This document shows positions 2,853-40,504 of a DNA stretch of 64,000 nt, piece by piece. The stretch comes from Spirochaetales bacterium (GTDB taxonomy: Bacteria; Spirochaetota; Spirochaetia; DSM-2461), in NCBI GenBank assembly GCA_016936555.1, contig JAFGXR010000108.1:1-64000 (forward strand), in the 5' to 3' direction. Every line of letters starts with the position of its first letter. Position 1 is the stretch's first letter. The notes beneath the pieces are model-generated. The model did not search any database. It saw only the letters and a program-made list of their open reading frames with translations, and was not told where the DNA came from. A program made the translations under genes and the position numbers.

Positions 2853-2854
2853 AG

Positions 2855-3523: not shown

Positions 3524-3529
3524 TTCGGA

Positions 3530-4900: not shown

Positions 4901-4980
4901 TTTTCTCCAATATTTCCTCATCGATCGGGAATACAGTGAGTTATTGAAGATAAGTCACTCCGGTGACCTGAGGAGACGTT

Positions 4981-6327: not shown

Positions 6328-6336
6328 GGGGTGAAC

Positions 6337-7248: not shown

Positions 7249-7251
7249 TTT

Positions 7252-8250
7252 TCATCCCTCTCTTTTAATCATGGCCAGCAGATTCTCTTCGGGAGTGAGC
7301 GGTGTAATTTCGCAGCCCGCCGACAGAATGAACGGCCTGCCTTTTTCCCGTTCGATCAGCTCTTTGACTTTCTGCCGGATTTCCCCGGGCGTGCCCCGTT
7401 CGATAACCGCCGCCGGATCGATATTCCCGCAGCGGATGACATCGTTACCAAGTATGGCATAGGCTTTTTCAAGGTCTACTTCCCAGTCCAGATCCAGAAT
7501 ATCCATCCCCACTTCTTTCAGGCCTCCGAGCAGATGGGTGATATTGCCGCAGATATGGATCTTGGCCATGGCTCCGCGATCCTGTATGAACCGGACAAGC
7601 TCCCTGTGGAGGGGCTGTACGAATTCATTGTATTGTCCGGCACCTATCTGGGAGCATATGGCATCGCCTATACCGATGATATCGCAGCCCGCATCGATCT
7701 GGGCCGCGGAAAAATCTTTTGCCGTCTGCAGTGTTTTTTCAAGAAGGACCCGGGTCTTCTCCGGTTCCGTCATCATCTGCACAAGCACTTCGCTCAGTTC
7801 CATGATGTCGCAGGCTGAAGCCATGGGCCCCTCCACCCAGCCGATGAGGGGAACATTTTCCGGTTTCTCCATTCTGAGTCTTTTGGCCGCTTCCAGGCGG
7901 TCATTCATTCGTTCCGCCTGACGGGGGTCCGGATTTCTGAGAAAAGCCGGATCATCTTCATTTTCAAGAACATAACGGGTACAGTGGGGAACCCGTTCAG
8001 GAGCATAGCTGAACCGGGCGCCGAATCCTTCGGCTTCACGGCCGGGATCGGAAATCAGACTGACTGTATCGGTATGGTATTTTTTCTGACAGAAAAGATT
8101 CGCTTCCACCAGGACATCGTGGTTCAGGTAGAAATTGCTGTAGGTCGAGTGGACTTCATGAGCTGCGAACTGCATCAGTATGGGGCTGAAGAGGGGGTTC
8201 CCCTCCCGGGATCTTTTCAGTGTCAGTTTGTAGAAATCATCTTTATTCAC
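7252..8250 (-). CDS. URO-D family (MtaA-like) methyltransferase in a glycosidase operon
   Basis: About 332 aa, full length for the MtaA/MtbA-like branch of the URO-D fold. It keeps the expected zinc-site elements: HICGN (HxC) near residue 220 and a second Cys in LSAGCEITPLTPEEN. It lies directly behind the glycosidase lipoprotein gene, whose stop overlaps a possible TTG start at 8256. GTG at 8250 is chosen because GAGGAG stands 8 nt before it. Although convergent with the corrinoid operon, it is transcribed with the glycosidase. Inference: it transfers a methyl group released from, or placed on, a glycan-derived compound. The substrate is unknown. Confidence 0.82.
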   Translation of the reverse strand: MNKDDFYKLTLKRSREGNPLFSPILMQFAAHEVHSTYSNFYLNHDVLVEANLFCQKKYHTDTVSLISDPGREAEGFGARFSYAPERVPHCTRYVLENEDDPAFLRNPDPRQAERMNDRLEAAKRLRMEKPENVPLIGWVEGPMASACDIMELSEVLVQMMTEPEKTRVLLEKTLQTAKDFSAAQIDAGCDIIGIGDAICSQIGAGQYNEFVQPLHRELVRFIQDRGAMAKIHICGNITHLLGGLKEVGMDILDLDWEVDLEKAYAILGNDVIRCGNIDPAAVIERGTPGEIRQKVKELIEREKGRPFILSAGCEITPLTPEENLLAMIKREG

Positions 8251-8252
8251 AA

Positions 8253-10928
8253 TCAATTCTCCTCTGCCTTATCGAGGGTAAGGGCGATCAGCCAGAAATC
8301 CGATTCCTGCGGTACAGAGAGGCTTTTCAGCTTTCTGCCGCTGTCGGTCTCTATGTTTATCAAAGTGATCCGCGGCTCCGCGTCCTGGAGAATCCCTGTC
8401 GTCAGGTGCCGATAGGGCGCTTTCATAACTTCGACTTCATCGTATTTCGCATCGACGCACCAGTCTGTTATTTTTTTCGTCACAGTTTCCCGGTTTCCCT
8501 CTGTGTACTCCAGAGCGAACTCTATTTCCTTGTTGCCGTTGGTTGCCGAAACAAGAACAGCCAGTCCGCTGCAGTTGTATTCGGGGAGGCTTATCCTGTA
8601 AGGGCCTTTGTCCAGACGGAGCGCATTCAGCATTCCTGTCTCCGTAGGCGGGAATGCGAAAGTCCAGCCGTACTGGCCCGCAGTTTCTCCGGAAGGATAG
8701 AACCGGGCCGGGTAGCTGAAGGGGCCGCCGAAATTGTCCACATCATCAAAGGCATCTTCCCCTGTAAAAAGGTCGGAATCGAAATAGGCACTTATGTCGA
8801 CCGGCAGAGACCGGCGCCGGGGATAATCCCTGACGAAAACAATCCCTTCCCTGCTGAAATCCGTCCCCATATACTCAAAGGAAACTTTTACGGGGTACTC
8901 TCCCGGTTCCGTACCTTCGGGAAGTGTAAAGCTCAGGAGGTACTCGGCTCGCTTTCCCTCTTTCACCATGTAATCCTGCCCGGGGGAATGGCTCCATCCC
9001 CCGGGAAAATCCGCTGACAGGCGGCCCCGGATGTCTTCGGTAAAACTGTTCCGGGCTTTGACCAGGATAGAACTGTCTTCTCCGGGAGCGGCGTAATTGA
9101 TCCGCGGGACGATATCGAAATCCACAGGTGCCAGGACCCGGAGTTTCAGGGGAATCCCGGCAAAGGAAAGGCTCCTCTCTCCGGAGCGTCTCGCCTGAAT
9201 GTAAGCCAGGACAGCCGCACCTTCTTTCGGCGTGGCACTTTTTGCCGTTATTCTGACGCGGCAGCTAAGGGAATCGCCGTTGTTCATATCCTCGAAACTA
9301 CGGGAATCGAGATATTCCACATCCCAATCCTGATTCTGCCCGACCAGCGTCACTTTTCCGCTGACCGGGACAGAACCCCTGTTGGTCACAGTGAGCAATC
9401 CGGTTGTTGAATCTCCCACGATGAGAGAATCGTCATCAACTTCGAATGTTCCGAAAATGAAATCTTCCTGGCGGCCTGATGCTATTTCCAGAGAGACGGC
9501 TCCGGAGGGGGGGATCGTAATCCTGTATGCCGCGGATCCGGATATTATGCTGTCTGTCCCGGTCAGTCTCACCGTCCGGCTGTCGATGGTGAACATCGAC
9601 AGAGTCCTTTCCTTTCCGTCATCGGGAAAGTCGAGCCTGACATCGAGACTGATGTCCCTGTCCAGGTTGTTGTTGAGGATAAGCGATTCCATCTCTCCTC
9701 CGGTGTCCCGGGACGCGATCGCGTCAACTCCTACGGGAAGACCGCTGCCTGTAAGAGGGACTGTCCTTCCCCGGAGGGAGCGGGATGCGAAATAGGGGTT
9801 GTAGTTATGGGGTATGATCGACCCGTCTGTATCGATCAGACCGAAATCGTAAGCTCCTTCGGAGTACCGGGGGAGGCAGAACTGATGGAATCCCAGAAAG
9901 GTGCCGCTCTCCTCTGCGAGCCGGATCTGCCGGTTCAGTAGATAATTGAATTTGTCATCGGGAGTCAATTCCCTGTAATCGGCTTCGCTGATAATGATTC
10001 CCGGGCCGGTTCCTCCCGCCGCGGCACGGAATCGCGCAAGAATCTCTTTTGATTTTTCTATCAGGCTGTCCGGATTTTCGGAATAGGAGTGAAAAGATAT
10101 GAAATCGGCATAAGGGCCGCAGTTTTCTATAAAGCCGCTTATCCATCGTGAGAAATCTCCGGCCGAAGGGTCGGGACTCAGAACAGGTCCGCCGACGAGA
10201 ATGCCGGGGAACTCTTTATGGATGGCTTCCGAGGTTTTGTTGAAGAGACTGTAATATTCATCTAAGGTGCCGGACCAGTAGTTTTCCACATTCGGCTCGT
10301 TCCAGATTTCCACATATTTAACATCAGCTCCCGATGCGACGGCATCGGAGATGATGGCTAGAGCGAACTCCGCCCACTCCTCCTCCGAGGAAGGCGGCCC
10401 GTTGAACCGTCCTGTGGTACTGTTCCATTGGGTATTGTAATCGAGGAGGAGCAGAACTTCCTGATTCATGTCCTTCAGATCACTGTAGAAAGCCGCGGTG
10501 TCACCGCTGTAGGGCAGGGCTTCGGAGCTGAAGAACCGTCCGCCATCGAGGATCCCGGGATCTCCATTATCGTTTTCCGGTTCCGCCAGATTGAATCTGG
10601 CCTCGACTCTGGCCTGGGTGTTCTCCGGTTTGAGCTGCCTGTAGATCATCGAGGCTACAGGGGATTTTTTGTTCCCGTAAAGGTACTGATAATTCACCAG
10701 ACCGAAAAGCTCTCTTCCGACGGGAATTCCTTCTCCTGCAAAATCGACAGTCAGGTCTGTATCACCGGAAGGAATCCGGTCAAGTTTAACTGAACGGATC
10801 CGGGCTTCGCCGGATGGAAGGTTTTCGACGGTCATATCATCTTTTCCCCTGTCTTCCATATGAAGACAGCCGGCAGAGAGCAGAGACAGAACCCCTATGA
10901 GGAGCCCCGGTAATAAATGATTTTTCAT
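8253..10928 (-). CDS. Exported clan GH-A glycoside hydrolase lipoprotein (GH39-like)
   Basis: 891 aa. The signal peptide ends in the lipobox LLSAGC, giving a lipid-anchored surface or periplasmic enzyme. A TIM barrel (about residues 60-370) has acid/base Glu in EIWNEPN and a likely nucleophile Glu in IIISEADY, as in GH39 and related GH-A families. Beta-sandwich modules follow (about 390-700), then a C-terminal jellyroll with TDWCVDAKYDE and KAPYRHLTTGIL. The same layout and C-terminal motif occur in the gene at 40568-43246, so the two are paralogues. The substrate is not known. Context (mannosidases, GH172) suggests a mannose-rich heteroglycan. It is divergent from the sugar permease operon and has a URO-D-like gene downstream. 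Confidence 0.82.
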   Translation of the reverse strand: MKNHLLPGLLIGVLSLLSAGCLHMEDRGKDDMTVENLPSGEARIRSVKLDRIPSGDTDLTVDFAGEGIPVGRELFGLVNYQYLYGNKKSPVASMIYRQLKPENTQARVEARFNLAEPENDNGDPGILDGGRFFSSEALPYSGDTAAFYSDLKDMNQEVLLLLDYNTQWNSTTGRFNGPPSSEEEWAEFALAIISDAVASGADVKYVEIWNEPNVENYWSGTLDEYYSLFNKTSEAIHKEFPGILVGGPVLSPDPSAGDFSRWISGFIENCGPYADFISFHSYSENPDSLIEKSKEILARFRAAAGGTGPGIIISEADYRELTPDDKFNYLLNRQIRLAEESGTFLGFHQFCLPRYSEGAYDFGLIDTDGSIIPHNYNPYFASRSLRGRTVPLTGSGLPVGVDAIASRDTGGEMESLILNNNLDRDISLDVRLDFPDDGKERTLSMFTIDSRTVRLTGTDSIISGSAAYRITIPPSGAVSLEIASGRQEDFIFGTFEVDDDSLIVGDSTTGLLTVTNRGSVPVSGKVTLVGQNQDWDVEYLDSRSFEDMNNGDSLSCRVRITAKSATPKEGAAVLAYIQARRSGERSLSFAGIPLKLRVLAPVDFDIVPRINYAAPGEDSSILVKARNSFTEDIRGRLSADFPGGWSHSPGQDYMVKEGKRAEYLLSFTLPEGTEPGEYPVKVSFEYMGTDFSREGIVFVRDYPRRRSLPVDISAYFDSDLFTGEDAFDDVDNFGGPFSYPARFYPSGETAGQYGWTFAFPPTETGMLNALRLDKGPYRISLPEYNCSGLAVLVSATNGNKEIEFALEYTEGNRETVTKKITDWCVDAKYDEVEVMKAPYRHLTTGILQDAEPRITLINIETDSGRKLKSLSVPQESDFWLIALTLDKAEEN

Positions 10929-11055: not shown

Positions 11056-11075
11056 ATATTGACAGGAGTGTGCAA

Positions 11076-11987
11076 ATGAAGTCGGAACCGGTTCTTTCGG
11101 AAAGGGCGAACAGCAGATATAAAAATCTCTATGATAAATATGTTTTACCCTTTCTCTTTATATTGCCGGCAGTGCTTTTATTCACTGTTTTCGCCTGGTT
11201 TCCTATTCTGAAAGGATTTTATATCAGCTTTCTTGATTATGATCTGCTCAAAGGAGCCAGCTTTACAGGATTGGACAATTTTAAAGCTGTCCTCTCCGAT
11301 CCTCTCTTACCTAAAGCCGTAATCAATACACTGTATTTTACTTTACTGGCTATTCTGTTCGGGTATGTCGTTCCGGTTTTTCTGGCGATCGCCATCAATG
11401 AGATGCGGTCCGCCCAGAGTTTTTTCCGGCTGGCTTTTTATATTCCGGTTGTTCTTCCGCCCATGGTGGCTGTGCTTCTCTGGAAATGGTTTTACGATCC
11501 CGATATAGGCCTGGCCAATGTGCTTCTGAACTTCGTCGGACTGAACGGGCTTCCCTGGTTGAATTCGCCGAAAACATCGATGTTTTCCCTGATCATCATG
11601 TCCACCTGGGCCAATGCCGGCGGATCTGTTCTGATTTATCTGGCGGCACTGAAGGGGATTCCCGTTTCCATGTACGAAGCGGCCGAGCTGGAAGGGGCGG
11701 GAATCTTTCAGAGAATCAGGTTTGTCACCATACCGCAGATTCTGGGGGTTATGCTCATTATGCTTGTTCTCCAGATTATCGGGACCATGCAGGTTTTTAC
11801 GGAACCTTTTGTTATGACCGATGGAGGTCCGGCCAACTCGACCCTGACTATTATGATGCTGTTATACCGCTACGGTTTCAAGTTTTTCGATTTCGGCGCG
11901 GCCGGCGCGCTGGGGCTTCTGTTCTTCTTTCTGCTTGTTTCGTTTTCCCTTGTGTATTTCCGGCTGACCAAAAAGTTTAAGGATTAA
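11076..11987 (+). CDS. Sugar ABC transporter permease, MalF/UgpA type
   Basis: About 303 aa inner-membrane protein with six predicted transmembrane segments. The cytoplasmic coupling-loop motif of carbohydrate permeases is EAAELEGAGIFQRIRFVTIP near residue 205. It pairs with the MalG-type permease 10 nt downstream. No binding protein or ATPase gene adjoins. The binding protein at 45117 belongs to the same probable regulon and is the likely partner, and the ATPase must be encoded elsewhere. AGGAG lies 7 nt before the ATG at 11076. A GTG at 11070 is less well placed. It imports oligosaccharides released by the exported hydrolases (inference). Confidence 0.93.
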   Translation: MKSEPVLSERANSRYKNLYDKYVLPFLFILPAVLLFTVFAWFPILKGFYISFLDYDLLKGASFTGLDNFKAVLSDPLLPKAVINTLYFTLLAILFGYVVPVFLAIAINEMRSAQSFFRLAFYIPVVLPPMVAVLLWKWFYDPDIGLANVLLNFVGLNGLPWLNSPKTSMFSLIIMSTWANAGGSVLIYLAALKGIPVSMYEAAELEGAGIFQRIRFVTIPQILGVMLIMLVLQIIGTMQVFTEPFVMTDGGPANSTLTIMMLLYRYGFKFFDFGAAGALGLLFFFLLVSFSLVYFRLTKKFKD

Positions 11988-11997
11988 GGAGATTTTC

Positions 11998-12921
11998 GTG
12001 GCAGTAAAATCCAATACTAAAAGATCCCGCCTTGTCAATTCTTTCGACAGGGCCGTTATCTCCCATAGGGAGTATGCCGATCCGGCTGTTAAAACCGCTT
12101 TTATTCTGGTATTTATTTTTCTCTCGCTTCTGGCCGTTACGACGATTTTTCCCATCTACTGGATGTTTACAGGCGGTGTGAAAAGTTCAACAGCAATAGC
12201 TCAGGTTCCTCCCCAGCTTATTCCCGAAGCTCCCCAATGGGGGAATTTTCTCAAAGCCTGGGGGCGGCTCAATTATTCGCTCTACTTTTTAAACACGTCT
12301 CTGCTCTGCCTGGGCGCTCTGGTTCTCCAATATCTCATTTCGGCAACGGCGGCATTTTCTCTCTCGAAATTGAACCCTGTTCTGAAAAAGTTCTGGCTGG
12401 CTTTTTTTCTAACGACCCTTATGGTACCGCCCAACGCCTACCTTATACCCCAGTATCTGACGATCGTCCGCTTTCCGGTTTTCGGTTTTTCTCTGCTCGA
12501 CAACTGGCTGGGGGTTCTCCTGCCCATGGCGGTCAGCGCCTTCAATATCTTCCTGCTGAAAAGCTTTTTTGACGATATTCCCGGCGATCTCGTTGATGCC
12601 GCCAGAATTGACGGGGCCAATGCATGGTTTATTTATCTGAAGATCATGATTCCCCTTTCCAAAGCCGTTCTGGCCGTCATCAGTATTTTTACGATCGTGG
12701 GAACCTGGAAGGAGTTTTTCTGGCCCTTTCTTGTGCTGAAGAAAACATCGGTTCAGCCGATTATGGTGGCTCTCTACAGGCTGACAAGCCAGACCGTCGG
12801 TGAGCCTCTCAATCTGGTTGTCGCCGGCATGGCAATCGCGAGTCTGCCGCCGTTGATTCTCTTTTTCATATTTCAGAAACAGATTCTCCAGGGAATCTCC
12901 CTGACGGGCATTAAAGGTTAA
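11998..12921 (+). CDS. Sugar ABC transporter permease, MalG/UgpE type
   Basis: 307 aa with a long N-terminal cytoplasmic segment, six transmembrane helices and the EAA loop VDAARIDGANAWFIYLKIMI near residue 200. The C-terminal segment (FQKQILQGISLTGIKG) is typical of the MalG family. The GTG start has AAGGAG 7 nt upstream. It is the second half of the permease dimer with 11076-11987 and is cotranscribed with the GH3 gene that follows 12 nt later. Confidence 0.93.
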   Translation: MAVKSNTKRSRLVNSFDRAVISHREYADPAVKTAFILVFIFLSLLAVTTIFPIYWMFTGGVKSSTAIAQVPPQLIPEAPQWGNFLKAWGRLNYSLYFLNTSLLCLGALVLQYLISATAAFSLSKLNPVLKKFWLAFFLTTLMVPPNAYLIPQYLTIVRFPVFGFSLLDNWLGVLLPMAVSAFNIFLLKSFFDDIPGDLVDAARIDGANAWFIYLKIMIPLSKAVLAVISIFTIVGTWKEFFWPFLVLKKTSVQPIMVALYRLTSQTVGEPLNLVVAGMAIASLPPLILFFIFQKQILQGISLTGIKG

Positions 12922-20790: not shown

Positions 20791-22050
20791 ATGAGGAAAG
20801 CGGATTTGGTAAAAGTGACTGAGGCCGACAGGAGGATTCTGGGGGATCTGGCAGAGCGGCAGAGAAAACTTGCGGACCGCGGAATTGAAAAGGAAAAAGC
20901 CCGTTTGTGGACGGATCACAATGATTTGATGACGACGGTGCCTCTTGTTTTTATCGACCCGGAAAACGGTTGGAATGAAATCATAAGGGAACAGGACCTG
21001 CTCTGTTCCGACCCCCTGCTGCGGGAATGGGAAAGAATTCTCAGAAAAGAGATCTTCTGGGGTGAGGAAATAAAGGATGACCGGGTCATCCGCTCCTTTT
21101 TTGATGTCGAATACGTTTATGAAGATACCAAGTGGGGGCTTCATGAGACGAAGAAGCAGGTCAACAGCGCCGGCTCTTATTCCTGGGAGCATCCTCTTAC
21201 CGATTATGAAAAGGATTTTGATAAACTGGCATTTCCCGTTATAACCGTGGATTACGGCGAAACTCAGAGCCGGATTGAGCTGGCCGAGTCGATTTTCGGC
21301 GATATTCTGACGGTGCGGAAGCGGGGGAACTGGTGGTGGACCCTCGGGATGACCTGGGACTTTATCAATCTCCGGGGACTGGAAAACTTTATGTTCGATA
21401 TGTACGACCATCCCGAAGGCATACACAGGTTGATGACGTTTCTTTCCGAAGGGACCATATCCAAAATCAAATGGCTGGAGAAAAACGATCTGCTGTCCTC
21501 CAATGTCGGAGGCGAGTACGTGGGTTCCGGCGGATTCGGGTGGACAGAACAGCTTCCCGGCCCCGGATCTCTCAATGCTGCCGCCCGACTGCAGGATATG
21601 TGGGGGTTCGGTGAAAGTCAGGAGACGGTCGGTCTGGCCCCTGATATGTTTGCCGAATTCATTCTTCCCTACCAGATTAAAGTCCTTGAGAATTTCGGCC
21701 TGAACTGTTACGGCTGCTGCGAGCCGATCGATCCCCGGTGGGACTACGTGAAAACCATCCCCCGGCTCCGCCGCGTTTCCTGTTCACCCTGGGCCGACAG
21801 GGAGGTCATGAGCCGTCAGCTGGAGCAGAATTACATCATGTCCATGAAACCCTCTCCGACTCCTCTCGCTTCCGCTGTGATGGATGAAGATGAAGTGCGG
21901 ACAGGGCTCCGGCGGGATCTCGCCGTCGTAAAGGATAACGTTGTGGAAGTGATCATGAAAGACAATCATACAATAGGAAACAATCCCCGCAATGTTACAA
22001 GATGGGTGGAGATTGTAAGGGAGGAAATTGACCGGCTTAAAGGGATGTAG
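20791..22050 (+). CDS. URO-D superfamily protein of a glycan regulon
   Basis: 419 aa, longer than MtaA-type proteins, of the COG0407-like URO-D fold. A Cys cluster NCYGCCEPID stands where MtaA-type enzymes have HICGN, and RVSCSPWAD may supply a further Cys. This suggests a thiol-rich metal site and a methyltransferase-like role rather than haem synthesis. It has no signal peptide, and GAGGAG stands 6 nt before the ATG. It is cotranscribed with the frameshifted HAMP protein from operator site E. The substrate is unknown. Confidence 0.72.
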   Translation: MRKADLVKVTEADRRILGDLAERQRKLADRGIEKEKARLWTDHNDLMTTVPLVFIDPENGWNEIIREQDLLCSDPLLREWERILRKEIFWGEEIKDDRVIRSFFDVEYVYEDTKWGLHETKKQVNSAGSYSWEHPLTDYEKDFDKLAFPVITVDYGETQSRIELAESIFGDILTVRKRGNWWWTLGMTWDFINLRGLENFMFDMYDHPEGIHRLMTFLSEGTISKIKWLEKNDLLSSNVGGEYVGSGGFGWTEQLPGPGSLNAAARLQDMWGFGESQETVGLAPDMFAEFILPYQIKVLENFGLNCYGCCEPIDPRWDYVKTIPRLRRVSCSPWADREVMSRQLEQNYIMSMKPSPTPLASAVMDEDEVRTGLRRDLAVVKDNVVEVIMKDNHTIGNNPRNVTRWVEIVREEIDRLKGM

Positions 22051-22060
22051 AAAGAAAAAA

Positions 22061-22088
22061 TTGACAGAGGTGGTTAGCGATGCTAACC
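22061..22088 (+). promoter_or_regulatory. -35 box overlapping-region with GGTTAGC inverted repeat
   Basis: TTGACA at 22061-22066 is followed by the perfect 7-bp inverted repeat GGTTAGC-GAT-GCTAACC (22072-22088), located in the spacer and -10 region. It looks like an operator of a different regulator than the TGTATATACA sites, since LacI/GntR-type operators often contain GTTAGC halves. It precedes the lipoprotein-porin-lipoprotein genes. The -10 box is not clear. Confidence 0.55.
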
Positions 22089-22123
22089 TTCAATAAACAA
22101 TAGAATACATAGGGGGAGTATGT

Positions 22124-22861
22124 ATGAATAAATATGTACAAATAATGATTGCTGTATTGATGTCCATATATGTTTTGACTGGTTGCCGGTTTCCCGGTGA
22201 GGATGATGTTTTCGATCCCGGCGTTCCCGGTGTTCCTGTCGAGGGCTACGGCGTGGCCTGGGTTGACTGGGAGAATGATGCGACTGCTGATGCCTGGAAC
22301 GATACGGATATTTCCGGAGTCGATGCCGGGATCGGCGACATCTATCTTCTGTCGGAAGATGATGGCGGGGATCACAGGGAGAAGCCGATCTCTTTTTCCG
22401 ACAACGATGATCAGACTGCTGAGGAGCAGCAAGCTGAAGTCATTGCGCGCTTTCAGACATGCTGGGCTCTGTTTAATGAGCAGGGATATAATCTGGGCAC
22501 TCCCCAGATTCATCCTTCCGACGGTCAGGTTCACTTGTGGGGATCTGTGTGGGCGCAGAATCTCAGTGATGGCGATATTGCTGTCGTGGATCCCTGGGGA
22601 GTCGGGATCAGCACAATCCTCGTCTCCAAAAATGCCGTAGGGAGTGCTGTTTATGCTGTGACGGGTCCGGTCCTCGAGATCTGGGATATCGGTCCTCAGA
22701 CGACAGGAGCCCCTCTGGAAAATTTCGGTTTTACAAAAGACGGCTATCAGCAGTTTCAGAAGGGGTATGTCTATGTGGAGACAAAAAACGGCATTGTGTT
22801 TACTCAGTGGGTCGCCGGTGGCGAGGTTCCCGACTGGGCCGGTGAAGAACTGGTTGATTAG
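22124..22861 (+). CDS. Lipoprotein with LGFP-like C-terminal motif, function unknown
   Basis: 245 aa. The signal peptide ends in VLTGC. The middle contains GYNLGTPQIHPSDGQVHLWG, QNLSDGD and DPWGVG. The C-terminal part GAPLENFGFTKDGYQQFQKG resembles LGFP-type repeats, which are linked to cell-envelope association. The same order of motifs (GFNPGKP, VHQW, QNFSDGD, AWGI, RFGKGIM) recurs in the lipoprotein at 24340 and more weakly in that at 26833, so this is a local paralogous family. It stands first in the group that includes the porin-like barrel. A role in binding or presenting glycans is a guess. Confidence 0.75.
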   Translation: MNKYVQIMIAVLMSIYVLTGCRFPGEDDVFDPGVPGVPVEGYGVAWVDWENDATADAWNDTDISGVDAGIGDIYLLSEDDGGDHREKPISFSDNDDQTAEEQQAEVIARFQTCWALFNEQGYNLGTPQIHPSDGQVHLWGSVWAQNLSDGDIAVVDPWGVGISTILVSKNAVGSAVYAVTGPVLEIWDIGPQTTGAPLENFGFTKDGYQQFQKGYVYVETKNGIVFTQWVAGGEVPDWAGEELVD

Positions 22862-22878
22862 GGAGAAGGCGGAAAAGA

Positions 22879-24321
22879 ATGTTTAATAAAATACACTATT
22901 TGGTTCTGATTGTTTTGTTTGCCGCGGTATGGGCCGGTTTCGCGCAGGATGCGGGAACACCCGATGAGTCCGGAATTGATGCGGTTTCTGAAAATACTGT
23001 TGACAGCGAAGTACTTCTTGAGGAAATCGAAGTTCTGAAGGAGACAGTGGATGCGCTCAGGAAGGATCTGGATAAAGTGGAGAGAAAAGTCGACGGTTCC
23101 CAGCCGAAACTGCAGCCTTCCTTTAATACTTCGGTGACTCTGGAGGCGGGAGTGGATCTGGATACCCTGGCTTTCGGGTTTTCCAATAAAATCAGCCATC
23201 AGCTGACACTGACTCTTCTCGATGAGGCCACCAAGGAGTCTGTCGCGAGAGGTCCGCTGGTCGGCTATATCAAGATAACCGATTTCAGTGTCGATCTGCT
23301 TGATGCGAATTCCATCAGCGGTTCCAACGGCTCTGTTGAAGCGAAACTCCTCTGGGGTGCCTGGGATCTGCTGGTTTCCAGCGCGCCGGCGCTTCTGCTG
23401 AATAATGCCTGGAAAATATACCCCGATCAGACCGCGGCCATTACGGCCATAGGCAATGTGGCTTACAGTCCTGACTATCCGGCGATGGGCGGTCTGACTG
23501 TTCACTATAACAGGCCGCGGTTTTCCCTGGGGCTGGGGCTTGCTTCCGAAGGGAATTACGAAGCCAACAGTCTCAACACTTTTCATGTAAAAGCCGATTT
23601 CGAGTATGATTATGAGCCCTTCTATATTTATGCCGCTGTGGCCGACCAGTTTAAAATCGGAACGCTCGATGAAGAGTCTGGTTTTACGACAAATGGCGAT
23701 TTCGGAGCAACGGCTCTGTTTGAAGGGACGATTCCTCTGGTCAACGGCCTGATTCTCGGAACCGCAGCGGATTTCTATCTCGAAAAGGCGCTCGATGCTT
23801 TTGCTGATTTCGGGAGTCCGGAATTTGATTTCCGCCCCTATGCGGAATTCCGTTACAGCAGTAAAGCTGTCCGGGATTTTGAAGACGTTTACTCCAATGT
23901 CAGGCTCGAAGGGTACTTGAATCCTGAATCGAAGCGCCTGGATCTCAGGGTCTCCGCCTATGAAATCGATGAAGATGACGGTCTTTTTAAAGGGCTCGGA
24001 TATGAAATCGGCGCGGGATTTTACGATATCCTGGAGTCTATGGATGATGAAGGGGGGTTCCGGTATTCTCTCGATGGAGAGGTCAGCTACCTTATTAAAA
24101 AGATCAAGCCCTATGTCGCCGCCTCCTATTTTAATAAAAAGGTTATTCAGGAAACCGTGTCGGGGGAACAGGTTCTGTCGACAAAGGACGGTGTTGTCGC
24201 CCTTACCGCCGGGGTCAGCCTGACAATGGTGCCGCGGACGGAATTTGTCTTCGAGTATGCCAATGATGATCTGAGTTCCGGCAACGGCGTCTTTACTTCC
24301 AAATGCATTATTACTTTCTAA
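22879..24321 (+). CDS. Porin-like outer-membrane beta-barrel protein with N-terminal coiled coil
   Basis: 480 aa. The signal peptide is cleaved near AGFAQDAG. A short coiled coil (residues about 45-75, LEEIEVLKETVDALRKDLDK) is followed by a run of alternating polar/hydrophobic strands to the C terminus, which ends in KCIITF with a terminal Phe, the usual signature for barrel assembly. It probably forms a sugar-permeable pore or tethers to the cell wall through the coil. Its place between two related lipoproteins and upstream of a surface hydrolase suggests a joint role in glycan capture. The exact porin family is not recognised. Confidence 0.75.
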   Translation: MFNKIHYLVLIVLFAAVWAGFAQDAGTPDESGIDAVSENTVDSEVLLEEIEVLKETVDALRKDLDKVERKVDGSQPKLQPSFNTSVTLEAGVDLDTLAFGFSNKISHQLTLTLLDEATKESVARGPLVGYIKITDFSVDLLDANSISGSNGSVEAKLLWGAWDLLVSSAPALLLNNAWKIYPDQTAAITAIGNVAYSPDYPAMGGLTVHYNRPRFSLGLGLASEGNYEANSLNTFHVKADFEYDYEPFYIYAAVADQFKIGTLDEESGFTTNGDFGATALFEGTIPLVNGLILGTAADFYLEKALDAFADFGSPEFDFRPYAEFRYSSKAVRDFEDVYSNVRLEGYLNPESKRLDLRVSAYEIDEDDGLFKGLGYEIGAGFYDILESMDDEGGFRYSLDGEVSYLIKKIKPYVAASYFNKKVIQETVSGEQVLSTKDGVVALTAGVSLTMVPRTEFVFEYANDDLSSGNGVFTSKCIITF

Positions 24322-24339
24322 AAAAAGGAGTTTGGTATT

Positions 24340-25287
24340 ATGAAAAAAGCAGTTTTTAAAATGTTGTTTCTTCTTGTTCTCGGTTCGGCCTTTATGAGCT
24401 GTGCCACGGGAGGGGCCGCTGTGGCGGGTCTCGGGGTTCTCGATGGTATGGATGAAGCCTCTTCGGCTATTGTCGTGGATCGCTTTGAACGGGCTCAGCA
24501 GGTTCTGGAATATTGTGAAAAACCTGTTAAATCCGTTGCCGGTGATGCCGTAATGGCCGACGGAGCGGTTCTTCAGCCGGTTCTGCTCAAAGATGAATCC
24601 CCGGCTTATATTGTCCTCTCTTCCCTCGATGCCTGGACGGCCTATCCGGTTACGGGAGTTTTTGCCGAGGCCTATGCCGATGGGGGGTACAGTACATACG
24701 GAGCTCCGCTCACTTATGAATTCCTCGATGACGGATTTCCGACCCAGGTTTTCGAGAAAGGTGTGATGGTAGTCGAAGCGGGAACGGCGGACTGGGTTGC
24801 CGAACCCGCCGAAATGCCCGCCGAACTGGCCGGTGTCGGTGAACTGAGGGGAGATGACGAAGTTCTGTCCGCTCTTGATGATGAAACGCGAAGCAACATT
24901 ACTTCGGCTGTCAAAGAAGCCTATAAACTGGCCCGTCTTCAGGGATTCAATCCGGGAAAACCGGCAGGAGGCGATAAAGTCCATCAGTGGGACGGCCCCC
25001 TGTCCCAGAACTTCAGTGACGGAGACAGTATCTCCGGCGCCTGGGGAATCAATTCGCTGGCCATTGTGTTTCTATACCCCGAATCAAAAGATGCTTTCTT
25101 TGTCCGTGATGAGTTTGTCAATAAAATGGAAATCGGCGAGGGGATCGATGCCCACTCCGGTGCCTTCGGTTACGGCGGCGCTTTATCGCCCGAATACATA
25201 ATCGATGGAAAAGTCTGCCAGAGATTCGGAAAAGGAATTATGCAGAGGGAAGATGACGGTTCAGTCTCCTTTATCCCTCTTATGTAA
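24340..25287 (+). CDS. Lipoprotein of the LGFP-like paralogous family
   Basis: 315 aa. The lipobox is FMSC (signal peptide about 20 residues). Two related halves are visible: one with AYADGGYSTYGAPLTYEFLD and VFEKGVMVVE, one with GYGGALSPEYIIDGKVCQRF and FGKGIMQRED. The part GFNPGKPAGGDKVHQWDG, QNFSDGD and AWGI is shared with the lipoprotein at 22124. AAGGAG stands 9-10 nt before the ATG. The porin-like gene lies 18 nt upstream, and a hairpin then separates it from the hydrolase gene. Function unknown. Confidence 0.75.
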   Translation: MKKAVFKMLFLLVLGSAFMSCATGGAAVAGLGVLDGMDEASSAIVVDRFERAQQVLEYCEKPVKSVAGDAVMADGAVLQPVLLKDESPAYIVLSSLDAWTAYPVTGVFAEAYADGGYSTYGAPLTYEFLDDGFPTQVFEKGVMVVEAGTADWVAEPAEMPAELAGVGELRGDDEVLSALDDETRSNITSAVKEAYKLARLQGFNPGKPAGGDKVHQWDGPLSQNFSDGDSISGAWGINSLAIVFLYPESKDAFFVRDEFVNKMEIGEGIDAHSGAFGYGGALSPEYIIDGKVCQRFGKGIMQREDDGSVSFIPLM

Positions 25288-25306
25288 ATAGGATCTCCGA
25301 TGAAAA

Positions 25307-25326
25307 GGGGCTGTTGCAGCAGCTCC
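25307..25326 (+). terminator. Hairpin between lipoprotein and hydrolase genes
   Basis: Stem GGGGCTG/CAGCTCC (one G-T pair), loop TTGCAG, followed by TTGTTC, a weak terminator or attenuator. The left arm GGGGCTGTTGCA also matches the ends of the MITE-like element at 34596-34704, so it could instead be a scar of that element. Confidence 0.45.
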
Positions 25327-25353
25327 TTGTTCAATTATAGAAATGAGGGAAAT

Positions 25354-26736
25354 ATGAAGAAGTTTTTTTTATCGGGGCTGGCGGCCCTTTTTTTGTTTTC
25401 ATGTACACAGCCGCAGGATCCCGAAACCGGGGATGATGAGATTATGCTCTCATCCCGGGCGGTTGACGGTTTGTCTCAGGGGATTGTGACGGGCCGGTAT
25501 TACCGCGAGATGTTTGAAGATCCCGATTCCTTTTTCCGGGCCTGGTACAACGCCGATATCGAGTGGATCAGGATGGAGTTCGAGGAATACAATTTCGATA
25601 CTTACTACAGCGGATTGTCCTATCAGGACAAGGTCGATATGTATAAAAAACTGGTCGATACGGCAGAGCTTTACGGGATTCAGGTTCTGGGTGTCATCGG
25701 CTACAACTCTCTCTATTATCCAAAACCAGACTTTGATGATTCTTATCATCTTACACAGGATAGCATCGATGCCTATATCGCCGCAGTGGAGAAGCATATA
25801 ACGGACTACGGCCTGCAGGCTGTGGAAATCTGGAATGAGCCCCGGCAGTTCCATTTTAAGGATGTGACGGGCGGGGACCGGATTAAGTTGCCGGCCTACG
25901 CTCAGCTGCTGGTGGCGGTTTATGAGGAATTGAAACCGAAGTATCCCGACGTTCTCTTTGTCGCCCCTGTGACATCCCAGGCTTTTGCCGATACCTGGGT
26001 GGGTAGGGACCACAGCAGCCTGAGTCTCCTGTCCGACCCGGAGAACAGTATCTTCAGTTCTCCCGCTATCATGAATTACCGCGATGCCAATAATGGCAAG
26101 CTGCCCCTCGATGTTGTGTCGTGGCACCCTTACGGGCGGATACTTCCGGAAGATCAGGGAGGCGGGCCGAAAGGGAGTTTTTATTACAGTCAGGATTTCT
26201 CGGCCTATCACGATAAGGTGAAAAGTTTTACCGACAGCGAGGGCCGGTCCATTGTGGGGGATTACCCCGTCTGGCTGACCGAGTACGGTTTCGATGTCAA
26301 TCAGACCCGGTCGGAAGCGACGCAGGATCTCTATTACCGCCAGATGATTGATGAGGTTAAAAAGAAAGAGGAAATCGAAGTTGTCTTTATGTATACATTT
26401 TATGATGATCCTCCTGTTTCGATCCGGCCCGACAGTGAAGGGTATAAATACGGGATGTACCGCTATAATTCCCTGACAGGGGAATTTGAGCCGAAACCGG
26501 TATTTACCTCTTACGTTTCGCTGAACTCCCGGGTGGGAATGGAATCAAATTTAAATGTTCATACAAATGCCGTGGGTTACTATCTCGAAAACGGGGGTAA
26601 GCGCAATTTCGGGCAACCCCGGGAGGGGGTATCTCTGTTGGGAAGCTTGTATAGTCAGTCATTTTCCGGAGGAGAAGCTGGATTGGGGGTTTTTGAGTGG
26701 ACATTAGGTGGACAAGTGTCATTTGTTCAAAAATAG
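25354..26736 (+). CDS. Exported clan GH-A-like glycoside hydrolase lipoprotein with LGFP-like tail
   Basis: About 460 aa. The signal peptide ends in LFLFSC. The barrel has acid/base Glu in VEIWNEPRQFH and nucleophile Glu in WLTEYGFDVN, with DVVSWHPYG between, which fits GH39/GH5-like members of clan GH-A. The last about 70 residues (NAVGYYLENGGKRNFGQPRE, LYSQSFSGGEAGLGVFEW) resemble the LGFP-like segment of the neighbouring lipoproteins. The start at 25354 has GAGGGAA upstream. The in-frame ATG at 25300 would disrupt the signal peptide. Substrate unknown; probably an endo-acting surface enzyme. Confidence 0.78.
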   Translation: MKKFFLSGLAALFLFSCTQPQDPETGDDEIMLSSRAVDGLSQGIVTGRYYREMFEDPDSFFRAWYNADIEWIRMEFEEYNFDTYYSGLSYQDKVDMYKKLVDTAELYGIQVLGVIGYNSLYYPKPDFDDSYHLTQDSIDAYIAAVEKHITDYGLQAVEIWNEPRQFHFKDVTGGDRIKLPAYAQLLVAVYEELKPKYPDVLFVAPVTSQAFADTWVGRDHSSLSLLSDPENSIFSSPAIMNYRDANNGKLPLDVVSWHPYGRILPEDQGGGPKGSFYYSQDFSAYHDKVKSFTDSEGRSIVGDYPVWLTEYGFDVNQTRSEATQDLYYRQMIDEVKKKEEIEVVFMYTFYDDPPVSIRPDSEGYKYGMYRYNSLTGEFEPKPVFTSYVSLNSRVGMESNLNVHTNAVGYYLENGGKRNFGQPREGVSLLGSLYSQSFSGGEAGLGVFEWTLGGQVSFVQK

Positions 26737-26764
26737 TTGACACTTGATTTATGTAATGTATAAT
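26713..26764 (+). promoter_or_regulatory. Strong promoter with overlapping inverted repeat
   Basis: TTGACA (26737-26742), 16-nt spacer, TATAAT (26759-26764): a near-consensus promoter for the lipoprotein at 26833. A 9-bp perfect inverted repeat CAAGTGTCA (26713-26721) / TGACACTTG (26738-26746) overlaps the -35 box and the end of the upstream gene, so a repressor could act here. No T-run follows, which speaks against a terminator. Confidence 0.65.
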
Positions 26765-26832
26765 AATGATTAGTAAGGTATAATGTAAAGTGTATCTTTG
26801 TACAAACTTAATTGTTTCATTGGAGGAAAGTA

Positions 26833-27561
26833 ATGAAAAGAAAAAGTTTATTTAGTTTAATGGTTTCCCTTTTGTTTTTCTCTTTTGCCTTCGTTGGCTG
26901 TGATCTTGATGGAGAAGATCCCATTGTTGATGACGATCCCATTGTTGAAGATGACGGTTGGGCGACATCTATTGATGTGAGAGATTTTACGACCGAAGAG
27001 CAGACTCTTATTGATTCTGCTGAATGGCTGGTCGGCAGCGAAGGTCCGATTGCTGGTGATGCAGATGCTCAGGCGGCTGTCCTTGCTCAAGTGAAGCATG
27101 GTATCGAAATCGCAATCCTTGCCGGTTTTGATCCGGGTACAATCTCCCAGAATGTTCACGAATGGTTAACTGCCGATGTACAGATTTATACAGCGAACTG
27201 GGCTGGGGGAGATGGTGCTGCTGATGAGACATGGGGCGTAACAGGTATATCTCTGGCTTCTCCGGATTATGAAGTGGCCGGTTTTGTTGCAGCTAATGAA
27301 ATCATCAATGAATGGACAAGGCTTGTTGGTCTGGGTGGTGTCGGTGTCGGGGCTGCTCTTACCCCTCCTGTATTTGGTGGAACTGTTTCATTTGACGATA
27401 CTCTCGGACATGCTGTCATTACAGGCGGTGTAATTGATTATACAGCATCTAAAGATGGTGTTGTTCAGGTTTTTGAAAGAGGAATCATAACAATCGATGC
27501 AGACGATCCGAATGGAAGAGGCGCTGCCTGGACTGACAATGCGACATTGGCAGCTGAATAA
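26833..27561 (+). CDS. Lipoprotein related to the neighbouring LGFP-like family
   Basis: About 242 aa. The lipobox is FVGC, with an acidic linker after it (DGEDPIVDDDPIVEDDG). Shared family elements are LAGFDPGTISQNVHEWLTAD, TWGVTGISL and a final VQVFERGIITID. It is more AT-rich and less elaborate than its relatives. It has its own strong promoter, and GGAGG lies 6-7 nt before the ATG at 26833. A hairpin follows, then the GH130 gene. Likely an abundant exported protein. Function unknown. Confidence 0.72.
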   Translation: MKRKSLFSLMVSLLFFSFAFVGCDLDGEDPIVDDDPIVEDDGWATSIDVRDFTTEEQTLIDSAEWLVGSEGPIAGDADAQAAVLAQVKHGIEIAILAGFDPGTISQNVHEWLTADVQIYTANWAGGDGAADETWGVTGISLASPDYEVAGFVAANEIINEWTRLVGLGGVGVGAALTPPVFGGTVSFDDTLGHAVITGGVIDYTASKDGVVQVFERGIITIDADDPNGRGAAWTDNATLAAE

Positions 27562-27587
27562 TATCTGACTCTCTTATAGTGTTTATA

Positions 27588-27640
27588 GGGGGCTGTCCGC
27601 CTGATGGAACTGTCGGTTCCGTCGGTCGGGCGGCCCTTCT
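27588..27640 (+). terminator. Hairpin between lipoprotein and GH130 genes
   Basis: GGCTGTCCG pairs with CGGGCGGCC (wobble pairs included) around a loop of about 20 nt and is followed by CTTCTTTTA. It ends right before the GGAGG of the GH130 gene. It probably acts as a partial terminator so that the lipoprotein is made in excess over the enzyme. Confidence 0.55.
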
Positions 27641-27659
27641 TTTATGGAGGTACGGAACA

Positions 27660-28604
27660 ATGGTTTCTGGAAAGAGGGCCGGCCTTGTTATGGGACCGGA
27701 AAGCGGTTCCTACGGCAGGGCGGCCCGTTTTAATCCCGGTGTCGTTTTCGAGCGGGGCCGGGTTCATATGGTCTACAGGGCGACAGAAGGTGATATCGGC
27801 GACAAAGAGGCTTACGTCTCTTCTCTCGGATATGCCAGGCTTACGCCGGAAGGTGATATTCTGGAGGACAGGGATTCCCCCTGGATTCTGAAAGCCAATG
27901 AAGAAGAGAAAATGGGTATCGAAGATGCCCGTATTGTTTCCTTCGAGGGGAAATTCTACCTGTTTTATACAGCCTATTCCGGCGATATTACCAATGTGGG
28001 TATCATCGAAACTGAGGATTTTACCGGATTCAGGAGGCTCGGTTATATCAAAAACGGTTTCTGGGACAAGGATGCCTTTATCTTTCCCCGGAGAATCAGC
28101 GGGAAGATCGCTTATATCCACAGGGTCGAACCGGGAATACAGATCGATTATTTTAATACCATTGAGGAGATGCTCGATCCTGCGAGCTGGAAGGGCTACG
28201 GGAACAGGATCGGGGAATCAACCATCATGAACCCCCTCTACGACTGGGAAAAGAAAAAAATCGGCGGCAGCGTTCCTCCCATAGAAACGGAGGAGGGGTG
28301 GCTGTTCATTTATCACGGCGTCTATGAAACTGTCCCGGGCGATGTTTCAACTATGGTCTATTCCGCCGGAGCCGCTCTCCTCGATCTCGAATATCCCTCC
28401 GTGGTAAAAGGGCGATTGGAACTCCCCATACTCAAACCGGAAGAGGAGTTCGAGATTGTCGGCGATGTTCCCAATGTGGTTTTTCCCCAGGGGGGGTATG
28501 TCCATGAGGGGAAACTTTATCTCTACTATGGAGCGGCTGATAAATATGTGGCCCTTGCCACTTACGAAGTGAAGGATCTCCTGGGAGCTTTGCTCTCTCC
28601 ATGA
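27660..28604 (+). CDS. GH130 family beta-mannoside phosphorylase/hydrolase, cytoplasmic
   Basis: About 314 aa five-bladed propeller of the GH130 family. Visible elements are MVYRATEGD, MGIEDARIVSFEGKFYLFYT (the conserved E-D-P/A-R motif), KDAFIFP, WLFIYHGV and VVFPQGG. Most characterised members phosphorolyse beta-mannosides to mannose-1-phosphate; some hydrolyse beta-1,2-mannosides. This fits the mannosidases and mannose isomerase of the region. No signal peptide. ATG at 27660 has GGAGG 9 nt upstream, and the open frame extends further upstream only through the hairpin. Substrate linkage unresolved. Confidence 0.9.
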   Translation: MVSGKRAGLVMGPESGSYGRAARFNPGVVFERGRVHMVYRATEGDIGDKEAYVSSLGYARLTPEGDILEDRDSPWILKANEEEKMGIEDARIVSFEGKFYLFYTAYSGDITNVGIIETEDFTGFRRLGYIKNGFWDKDAFIFPRRISGKIAYIHRVEPGIQIDYFNTIEEMLDPASWKGYGNRIGESTIMNPLYDWEKKKIGGSVPPIETEEGWLFIYHGVYETVPGDVSTMVYSAGAALLDLEYPSVVKGRLELPILKPEEEFEIVGDVPNVVFPQGGYVHEGKLYLYYGAADKYVALATYEVKDLLGALLSP

Positions 28605-38484: not shown

Positions 38485-39594
38485 TCAGGTGGATTTTCTG
38501 ATGATCATCTGGGTGGGAATCAGGACTTCTCTCTCCGGTTTGCGGGGATCTTCCTCTCCGATTCTATCCAGGATGAACCGGGCGGCCTGTCCCCCGATCT
38601 CGTCCCGGGCCTGCTGTACCGTCGACAGTTCTACGAAGGGCAGCGAGGCGGACTGGATATTGTCGAAGCCGGCTACCGCCACATCATCAGGTATCTCATA
38701 TCCGTTTTTCTTCAGGAACTGAATGACGCCGATCGCCAGAAAGTCATTGATGCAGAAAATGGCTGTCGGATGGTCATCCATGCTCATAATTCTCCTGATG
38801 ATTTCAAGTTCCTCATCTTCGTATTGCGGTATGGATTGTGTTTCCTGACCGGGTTTGTGTTCAACTTCGATGGCGACAAGGGGAAAAAGGCCCGAGTTTT
38901 TCATGGCATCTTCATAGCCTTTGATACGCTCGTTGACACTGCTCGGCCGGCTTTTTGTCGTCACGCAGCATATTCGTTTGTGGCCTTTACCGAGAAGATA
39001 GCTGACTATATCGAATGCTCCCTGATGGTTATTGGCCCCGACAAAATCGGATTTTATCGTTGAGAGCTTCCGGTCCAGAACCACAACGGGTAGATTTTCC
39101 GGGATGATTTCTGTTATATGAACGGTATTGTTCGATTCATCAATGGGGAAGAGTATGATCCCCAGAACCTGTTCATCTCTCATTCTTTTAAGCTGGCTTT
39201 CTTCGATAGCCGGATCGCCTTCGCTATGGCCGAGAAGCATCCCGTAGCCGTTCTGATGAAGATGGGACTCTATCCCCCTGATTATATCCAGAACAAAGGG
39301 GTCCTGCAGATAGGGAACCAGAACCCCTATCAACTGAGAAGTTTTGCTGGTGTAGGCTTTTGTGACGAATGTTCCCTTCCCCTGAATCCGTTTCAGGAGA
39401 CCTTCATTGACCAGAATGTCGAGAGCCTGTCTGACGGTGCCCCGACTGACTTTCAGCTTGTCGGCTATATCTACTTCCGGTTCGATTTTTTCATTTTCCT
39501 TTATCTCTCCGGTTTTTATCTTGCTTCGAAGGACATCGGCCAGCTGTTCATATAAAGGTAGTGGGGAGTTGTGATCTAATATTAATGTGTCCAT
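38485..39594 (-). CDS. AraR-like transcriptional repressor (GntR winged helix + LacI-type sugar sensor)
   Basis: 369 aa from ATG at 39594; the frame is open further upstream but that part is not protein-like. Residues about 8-75 form a GntR-type winged helix (PLPLYEQLADVLRSKIKTGE, VSRGTVRQALDILVNEGLLK). About 85-365 form a LacI/GalR-type periplasmic-binding-like domain (IGVLVPYLQDPFVLDIIRGI, VAGFDNIQSASLPFVELSTV). This order is that of Bacillus AraR, which binds a TGTAC/GTACA palindrome and is released by L-arabinose. The seven TGTATATACA-type sites in this window are its probable targets. Its inducer may be mannose or a derived sugar, unknown from sequence. Confidence 0.9.
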   Translation of the reverse strand: MDTLILDHNSPLPLYEQLADVLRSKIKTGEIKENEKIEPEVDIADKLKVSRGTVRQALDILVNEGLLKRIQGKGTFVTKAYTSKTSQLIGVLVPYLQDPFVLDIIRGIESHLHQNGYGMLLGHSEGDPAIEESQLKRMRDEQVLGIILFPIDESNNTVHITEIIPENLPVVVLDRKLSTIKSDFVGANNHQGAFDIVSYLLGKGHKRICCVTTKSRPSSVNERIKGYEDAMKNSGLFPLVAIEVEHKPGQETQSIPQYEDEELEIIRRIMSMDDHPTAIFCINDFLAIGVIQFLKKNGYEIPDDVAVAGFDNIQSASLPFVELSTVQQARDEIGGQAARFILDRIGEEDPRKPEREVLIPTQMIIRKST

Positions 39595-39614
39595 GCTTAT
39601 CAGGATAATCAATT

Positions 39615-39630
39615 TGTATGGATATGTACA
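39615..39630 (-). promoter_or_regulatory. Possible autoregulatory site of the repressor
   Basis: TGTATGGATATGTACA carries TGTA and TACA halves spaced wider than in the other sites, 21 bp upstream of the repressor start codon. A minus-strand -35 TTGACA lies at 39661-39666. The match is weak. Confidence 0.35.
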
Positions 39631-39702
39631 GCTGTTTTTAGAATAAATGATCAGTTGTTTTGTCAATAAGTACTGTGCAAGTGTAATAAAATAATAATCA
39701 AA

Positions 39703-39741
39703 TTGACAAATGTACCTTTTAGGTATAGCGTTGTATATACA
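39703..39741 (+). promoter_or_regulatory. Promoter with AraR-like operator (site B)
   Basis: TTGACA (39703-39708), a poor -10 (TATAGC or TAGCGT near 39724-39731), then perfect TGTATATACA (39732-39741). -35 to operator is 29 nt, as at site A. It drives the operon 39764-46460 and lies divergent from the repressor gene. Confidence 0.77.
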
Positions 39742-39763
39742 TAAATGAAAATTGGAGGAATTC

Positions 39764-40504
39764 ATGAAAAAGATACTTTTTCTTTTAGCGGTCGCGGGTT
39801 TGGCTATCTCCTGTGTAACAACGGGCGGCGGGTCTCCTGCCGCTGTCGATGAGAAAAATACTGTCGCCGTAAAAGAGGAACCGGCAAAAGAGATTGTACC
39901 GGGAACCGGTGAGGTTATTTTTAAGCTGGATCTTGAAGATCCCGCCATCGACGATCTTCTCGCGCCCTATGGAACCCTTGAGCCTTTCAACAGGATGGAG
40001 ATATTTGATAACAAAATCGAATTCGAAGGTTCCAACGGCTGGGAGGCATTCGGTTTCTTCCTGAACAGGGAGTTTGATCTCTCGGAAGGGCCGATTCTCG
40101 TTTCCATGGATGTTCTGAGAAACGCCAGTAATGAGCACAGCCAGATCGCGCTGTATTTTGTCAACCAGTATCTGGTCGACGGCGATCCCTGGACTCAGGG
40201 GGATTTTATCCGGGTTATGCAGAATTCTCTCAACACATCAACCCTCGTGGAACAGTCGAATGTGGACCAGCGGGGTGTTGGTATCGTGAAAATGGAAAAA
40301 CCGGGGCTCTGGAATATGGGAGAGAGTTACAGGCTCGGACTCGGTCTCGACGGATCGAAATTCAAAGTCTTTATCAACGATGTTCTTGTCGGCCAGGGGG
40401 ATTATGATATTCCTTTGAAAACGGGTTATCTCCATTTTATCGACTACAATTCCCTTGAAGGCGATGTGGATTATATCTCTGACTTTACTGTAGAGCGCTT
40501 CTGA
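39764..40504 (+). CDS. Lipoprotein with concanavalin-like jellyroll, function unknown
   Basis: About 246 aa. The lipobox is LAISC, followed by a short low-complexity linker. About residues 50-246 form one beta-rich domain with EAFGFFLNREFDLSEGP, FKVFINDVLVGQGDYDI and DYISDFTVERF, similar to LamG/concanavalin-type glucanase folds, without an evident catalytic pair. It is probably a carbohydrate-binding surface protein. GGAGGA stands 5 nt before the ATG at 39764. First gene of an operator-controlled operon, with a terminator hairpin right after it. Confidence 0.72.
   Translation: MKKILFLLAVAGLAISCVTTGGGSPAAVDEKNTVAVKEEPAKEIVPGTGEVIFKLDLEDPAIDDLLAPYGTLEPFNRMEIFDNKIEFEGSNGWEAFGFFLNREFDLSEGPILVSMDVLRNASNEHSQIALYFVNQYLVDGDPWTQGDFIRVMQNSLNTSTLVEQSNVDQRGVGIVKMEKPGLWNMGESYRLGLGLDGSKFKVFINDVLVGQGDYDIPLKTGYLHFIDYNSLEGDVDYISDFTVERF

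Follow-up and report, generated by a model that had tools for sequence, protein, structure and literature searches.

A distant Msp-type porin between LGFP-like lipoproteins: a probable glycan-capture unit in a spirochaete polysaccharide locus

The 64,000-nucleotide stretch of Spirochaetales DNA studied here (the window, C27:1-64000) belongs to a genome of 4.73 Mb in 134 contigs (G000, the source genome) and carries six consecutive + strand genes that a first-pass annotation had proposed as a possible glycan-capture unit. The arrangement it described was found in full, each gene at the coordinates given beforehand: an outer-membrane barrel gene lies between two related lipoprotein genes (LP1 and LP2), after which come a lipoprotein of the glycoside hydrolase (GH) clan A type, a third relative (LP3) and a GH130 phosphorylase (Table 1). 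From LP1 to GH130 the genes are separated by 17, 18, 66, 93 and 17 nucleotides (nt), with Shine-Dalgarno-like sequences within the 17 and 18 nt spacers on either side of the barrel gene. LP3 and GH130 may form a second transcription unit, since a perfect promoter sits between the GH-A and LP3 genes.

Table 1. Features of the unit and of its surroundings, in window positions (ABC, ATP-binding cassette; SBP, solute-binding protein).
Feature	Position	Strand
LP1 lipoprotein, lipobox LTGC, one clear LGFP-like repeat and a VHxW/WG half	22124-22861	+
Outer-membrane beta-barrel, distant Msp/MOSP-type porin, N-terminal coiled coil, C-terminal Phe	22879-24321	+
LP2 lipoprotein, lipobox FMSC, LGFP-like repeats	24340-25287	+
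GH-A-type lipoprotein, lipobox LFSC, WNEP and LTEYG motifs	25354-26736 (upstream start 25300)	+
LP3 lipoprotein, lipobox FVGC, divergent LGFP-like domain	26830-27561	+
GH130 phosphorylase, without obvious signal peptide	27579-28604	+
Sigma-70-type promoter, 12/12 (TTGACA-16-TATAAT), before LP3-GH130	26737-26764	+
Perfect inverted repeat GGTTAGC-GAT-GCTAACC, palindrome GGTTAGCGATGCTAACC, between URO-D-like gene and LP1	22072-22088	
Sugar ABC SBP, proposed next uptake step	45117-46460	+
Two sugar ABC permeases	11070-12921	+

By sequence comparison LP1, LP2 and LP3 are homologous to one another above chance: single pairwise comparisons gave E values of 1e-6 for LP2-LP1 and 4e-5 for LP2-LP3. The shared motifs listed at first pass, GF(N/D)PG, VHxW, Q(N)FSDGD, WG(I/V) and FxKG, are all present, with weaker forms in LP3 (GGD in place of SDGD, FERG in place of FxKG). 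As LP2 used as a single query retrieved no relatives in 296 genomes, a profile search, which the first-pass annotation had recommended, was needed. A profile restricted to LP1-3 retrieved relatives from four further genomes among 395 (E 1.7e-14 to 5.6e-6) and no further copy in the source genome; the family is rare (5/395 genomes, source included).

Pfam and NCBIfam scans of LP1-3 returned no informative family, and no match over the gathering score of the Pfam LGFP model (PF08310) was seen in LP1-3 or anywhere in the source genome; the relative in genome G520 (L080) exceeds this cut-off (27.7 versus 22 bits). Searched against the Protein Data Bank (PDB), the enlarged lipoprotein profile matched the LGFP domain of C. 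glutamicum MytA (6swz, E 2e-7; 6sx4, E 1e-5), and the match spans several MytA repeats. Structure prediction, likewise suggested at first pass, pointed the same way. An AlphaFold model of LP2 built from four sequences (predicted local distance difference test score, pLDDT, 63.8, core 75-83; predicted template modelling, TM, score 0.60) contains four helix-plus-sheet units (the profile counts three repeats), and MytA chains were its sole Foldseek matches at E ≤ 0.001 (1.4e-5 to 8.2e-5). TM-scores of the model against MytA were low (0.25-0.39), meaning that the packing of the repeats is unsure. The LGFP repeat is a helix plus a 3-4-stranded sheet (PMC11299179), and the model fits this pattern with one such unit per ~55 residues. 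Since profile and model both match MytA, the label LGFP-like is right despite the missing Pfam LGFP match. LP1-3 resemble the LGFP repeat (PF08310, MytA) in the helix with 3-4 strands, the G-x-P ... Q-x-F-x-x-G spacing and the tandem copies. They differ from PF08310 in carrying two to four divergent, sub-threshold repeats and an extra VHxW/WG half, and from the LGFP domains of actinobacterial wall proteins in being spirochaete lipoproteins beside a porin and hydrolases.

The barrel protein has a signal peptide, and the N-terminal coiled coil noticed at first pass is borne out by four a/d heptads at residues ~45-73. Its porin-like character, also suggested then, agrees with the NCBIfam msp_porin model (NF033926), which aligns to residues 21-236 (E 4.6e-7); since it scores 29.1 bits where the family cut-off demands 200, the barrel is only distantly related to Msp and falls outside the family. 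Pfam MOSP_N and MOSP_C gave no match on the barrel, its comparison with PDB sequences gave chance matches only (bacteriorhodopsin, E > 0.1), and a search for related loci with the barrel as query returned none. Barrel profiles reach MOSP-like porins across the class, in 71 of the 395 genomes at E ≤ 1e-6. For MOSP-C, porin trimers have been described (PMC8407342, PMC5643300). The barrel is predicted to work as a porin, probably as a trimer; the trimer and the specificity are what we infer. With the Msp/MOSP and Tpr porins of Treponema (NF033926) it shares a homologous N-terminal half, and the same profile also reaches Borrelia P66, whereas the coiled coil, the location between lipoproteins in a glycan locus and the sub-cut-off score set it apart from the Msp/MOSP proteins of Treponema. 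ScrY/LamB-type porins are sugar-specific and trimeric, ScrY having an N-terminal periplasmic coiled coil; to our knowledge they show no detectable sequence relation to the barrel, and their systems include no partner lipoprotein. As regards P66, the spirochaete porin profile matches its N-terminal half (L123 1501-3360; about 20 Borrelia genomes) with E values of ~1e-11 to 1e-14 per genome, and P66 matches msp_porin itself (1e-4); P66, Msp and the glycan-locus barrels may form one superfamily.

The GH-A lipoprotein matches the Pfam GH5 and Glyco_hydro_cc models below threshold only. Its WNEP and LTEYG motifs, which may correspond to the NEP acid/base and the strand-7 Glu of the clan, are kept in a paralogue at C27:85841-87325 (33% over 413 amino acids, E 5e-64). 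The first-pass annotation had given this protein a tail similar to the lipoprotein repeat. Taken alone the tail is not significant (E 0.46; BLAST of the tail against LP2 found nothing significant), but the repeat profile does pick up the homologous stretch of the paralogue (sequence E 1e-4, domain E 4e-4), which weakly supports an LGFP-like motif there. The GH130 protein is over the Pfam PF04041 cut-off (167 bits, E 7e-49) and closest to beta-1,2-mannobiose and 1,2-beta-oligomannan phosphorylases, the nearest solved structures being beta-1,2-mannan phosphorylases. Near it are two GH38 enzymes (mannosylglycerate hydrolase-like), a D-lyxose/D-mannose isomerase, GH2, GH1/GH3 enzymes and a mannitol-1-phosphate dehydrogenase-like enzyme. 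Judging from GH130, the two GH38 enzymes and the isomerase, the target of the unit is probably a mannose-containing glycan, which is our best guess.

Related barrels occur in three further glycan loci of the source genome, adjoining CBM32-like, CBM4/9 and beta-helix lipoproteins (CBM, carbohydrate-binding module). In source unit 2 (C27:75-87 kb, barrel part 75-81 kb) the barrel is homologous to that of the window (29%, E 8e-28) and has an F5/8C lipoprotein gene 13 nt upstream and an fn3+F5/8C lipoprotein gene 11 nt downstream, and the GH-A paralogue belongs to its region. G361 has an F5/8C lipoprotein, a barrel (E 1e-7), three small lipoproteins and a GH lipoprotein. Small lipoproteins, fold unassigned, are common to the unit 2 and G361 units (L011 11023-12569, L013 9305-10571; E 4e-17 and 1e-6; different families). 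On source contig C66 an SBP, two ABC permeases, a CBM_4_9 lipoprotein (L095 9028-9654) and a barrel follow one another, and the GH16 and GH3 lipoproteins around this operon indicate beta-glucan as substrate; the locus (L095 3793-15568, ~41.8-53.6 kb of C66) holds a complete beta-glucan-type set. The order SBP-ABC-ABC-CBM_4_9 lipoprotein-barrel recurs in G298 and G305, making three genomes of two genera, and G303 has the lipoprotein-barrel pair in reversed order. Source contig C23 combines a barrel (E 4e-13) and a beta-helix lipoprotein with GH2 and ABC genes, and G518 shows SBP, ABC, ABC, CBM_4_9+GH10, a GH10 lipoprotein and a barrel. Two consecutive barrels with GH5 were found in G300 and G570, with an additional small lipoprotein in G300; in L126 (9089-12004) and L128 (808-3814), from two different families, two MOSP-type barrels lie 7-9 nt apart and are followed by GH5. 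Such back-to-back barrels could possibly make a hetero-oligomeric porin. Pairs of a barrel and a GH10 or GH5 lipoprotein are thereby seen in G518, G300 and G570.

We then compared the surroundings of glycan-locus barrels with those of other barrels. A same-strand lipoprotein gene lies within 61 nt of the barrel in 9 of 11 glycan-locus sites and in 0 of 24 other contexts, a contrast to be taken as indicative, given that sites were classed by visual inspection of gene lists and that the contigs include short ones; the remaining two glycan-locus barrels have a lipoprotein gene at 265 nt and an overlapping GH5 lipoprotein gene. It is conceivable, if somewhat unlikely, that the parts are co-regulated and independent, the barrel being a general porin induced with the locus and the lipoproteins adhesins or enzyme anchors, with no interaction between them. 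MOSP-type barrels are indeed widespread as housekeeping porins, and no shared barrel-lipoprotein interface is evident, the lipoprotein folds differing between units; the tight spacing at glycan loci and the SBP-ABC-ABC-CBM-barrel order conserved across genera argue against such independence. In a 37-barrel tree those of glycan loci cluster but do not make up a single clade (4 changes, at least 2 forced), a pattern suggesting that recruitment happened more than once. A single clade (99/96) does unite the coiled-coil barrels of the window, unit 2 and G361, and since the last two share F5/8C partners, the LGFP-like set of the window looks like a later replacement.

Altogether, a unit resembling a polysaccharide utilization locus, with a porin-type barrel and LGFP-like lipoproteins, is real and well supported, and its function is what we infer: the genes probably encode the outer-membrane part, for glycan capture and uptake, of a polysaccharide locus. 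LP1-LP3, anchored in the outer membrane, would hold the polysaccharide at the surface through their LGFP-like repeats, the homology of which is established while ligand and membrane side are presumed. The GH-A lipoprotein, possibly with one degenerate tail repeat, would cut the glycan, as its clan motifs suggest. The barrel, a porin homologue and probably a trimer bundled by its periplasmic coiled coil, would admit the diffusing oligosaccharides, the SBP and ABC permeases of the locus would carry them across the inner membrane, and GH130 and the surrounding mannose-type enzymes would degrade them in the cytoplasm. The lipoproteins might instead face the periplasm from the inner leaflet of the outer membrane, taking sugars after the barrel and passing them to the SBP. 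Lipoprotein orientation leaves room for this and the coiled coil would offer a periplasmic docking site; equivalent lipoproteins elsewhere are polymer glycanases (GH10, GH5, GH16), enzymes that would be of use outside the cell, and we regard this alternative as quite improbable.

Several observations weigh against a surface glycan-capture unit. A distance of 10-20 kb separates the SBP and ABC genes from the unit, and they do not belong to its operon; genus relatives lack the LGFP-like/barrel unit; the barrel folded alone reached a pLDDT of 32 and the model was discarded; and the adjacency contrast carries the by-eye sorting and short contigs described above. The MytA LGFP domain binds peptidoglycan-arabinogalactan, so that the LGFP fold is tied to wall-polysaccharide binding, and what LGFP is known to bind is the wall of the producing cell and no foreign glycan (PMC11299179); LP1-3 are presumed to bind a foreign glycan. 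Lastly, in three f8 genomes the LGFP-like domain belongs to secreted proteins or lipoproteins whose genes neighbour radC or PEGA-type genes, with neither a barrel nor a matching sugar cluster beside them in these 3 of the 5 family genomes. Lipoproteins occurring apart from barrel and hydrolases in most genomes were what the first-pass annotation had expected to speak against its proposal, and this is in part what we see: the LGFP-like family is not dedicated to glycan uptake, and we rejected it as the defining mark of the unit.

These last points also favour an envelope tether, in which LP1-LP3 would face the periplasm and attach to peptidoglycan of the cell itself, so that they and the coiled-coil barrel would link outer membrane and wall, and their place in a sugar locus would be incidental; from general knowledge, the N-terminal coiled coil of the barrel would face the periplasm. 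Set against it, sugar-binding folds (F5/8C and CBM_4_9 lipoproteins) occupy the barrel-adjacent slot in the sister units, a GH-A paralogue accompanies both source units, and the source genome carries the LGFP-like domain only at this locus. In G454, moreover, a sugar ABC cluster encloses a two-domain LGFP-like protein. Its neighbours there are an SBP with 52% identity to the one in the window, a regulator with 43% identity to window 38485-39948 and two ABC permeases that share 56-58% with their window counterparts; the contig is too short to show a barrel. We therefore consider a tether unlikely.

Coming back to glycan capture, the best reading of the comparison is a modular unit that keeps its MOSP-type porin and can exchange its binding lipoprotein, the LGFP-like set being a rare variant. 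On this view, glycan loci would repeatedly have acquired a MOSP-type barrel, in each case next to a lipoprotein whose binding or hydrolytic activity fits the substrate. The first-pass annotation had seen here a substitute for SusC/SusD, which spirochaetes were said to lack. SusD_RagB (PF07980) was indeed found in 0 of 118 genomes of the class, with a positive Bacteroides control, and the TonB-receptor plug (PF07715) is absent from the source genome; SusC/SusD proper and TonB uptake were rejected for this locus on these grounds. The plug is nevertheless present in 57 of the 118 genomes, so a lack of SusC holds for the source genome and not for spirochaetes in general. Like the SusC/SusD loci of Bacteroidota, the window brings together a barrel, an adjacent binding lipoprotein, a putative surface hydrolase, intracellular hydrolases and a regulator; it differs in its porin-type barrel and ABC importer and in lacking SusD and the plug, and the spirochaete binding lipoproteins are of unrelated folds (LGFP-like, F5/8C, CBM4/9). 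Homologous barrels beside varied sugar-binding lipoproteins thus agree with the idea of a substitute, although the LGFP-like family does not define it. Only tentatively can one go further and imagine a spirochaete answer of its own to SusC/SusD, a modular 'utilisome' without TonB energy in which the MOSP-type porin would physically partner surface lipoproteins of mutually unrelated kinds (LGFP-like, F5/8C, CBM4/9 and small uncharacterised ones).

The window as a whole also encodes GH1, GH3, two GH38, two GH39-like and GH130 enzymes, an SBP, ABC permeases and a GntR/LacI-type regulator; hydrolases, binding protein, transporter and regulator are co-located, making it a polysaccharide utilization locus in the wide sense. 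The palindrome upstream of LP1, of which a search of the window found no second copy, is a possible operator. A corrinoid protein, a RACo-like activator, URO-D-type methyltransferases and a CobW-like protein are encoded at 159-8256, and a weak URO-D relative at 20791-22050, 73 nt upstream of LP1; a possible role of these genes is O-demethylation linked to methylated sugars. An open frame of 708 amino acids on the - strand (22858-24984), antisense to the barrel gene and part of LP2, misleads simple gene callers and is probably a by-product of codon usage.

A literature search found no description of such a barrel and lipoprotein unit, subscription journals being outside its coverage. The uptake of polysaccharide fragments is poorly known in diderms without SusC/SusD. 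Among the fibre users of guts, sediments and termites, spirochaetes are abundant. The barrel and lipoprotein signature would give a searchable marker for spirochaete glycan loci, and the lipoprotein type a substrate guess for each of them. More interesting than the LGFP-like set itself is the wider pattern of MOSP-type barrels paired with exchangeable glycan-binding lipoproteins, which would give relatives of Msp, a protein otherwise studied as a virulence porin, their first function in nutrition.

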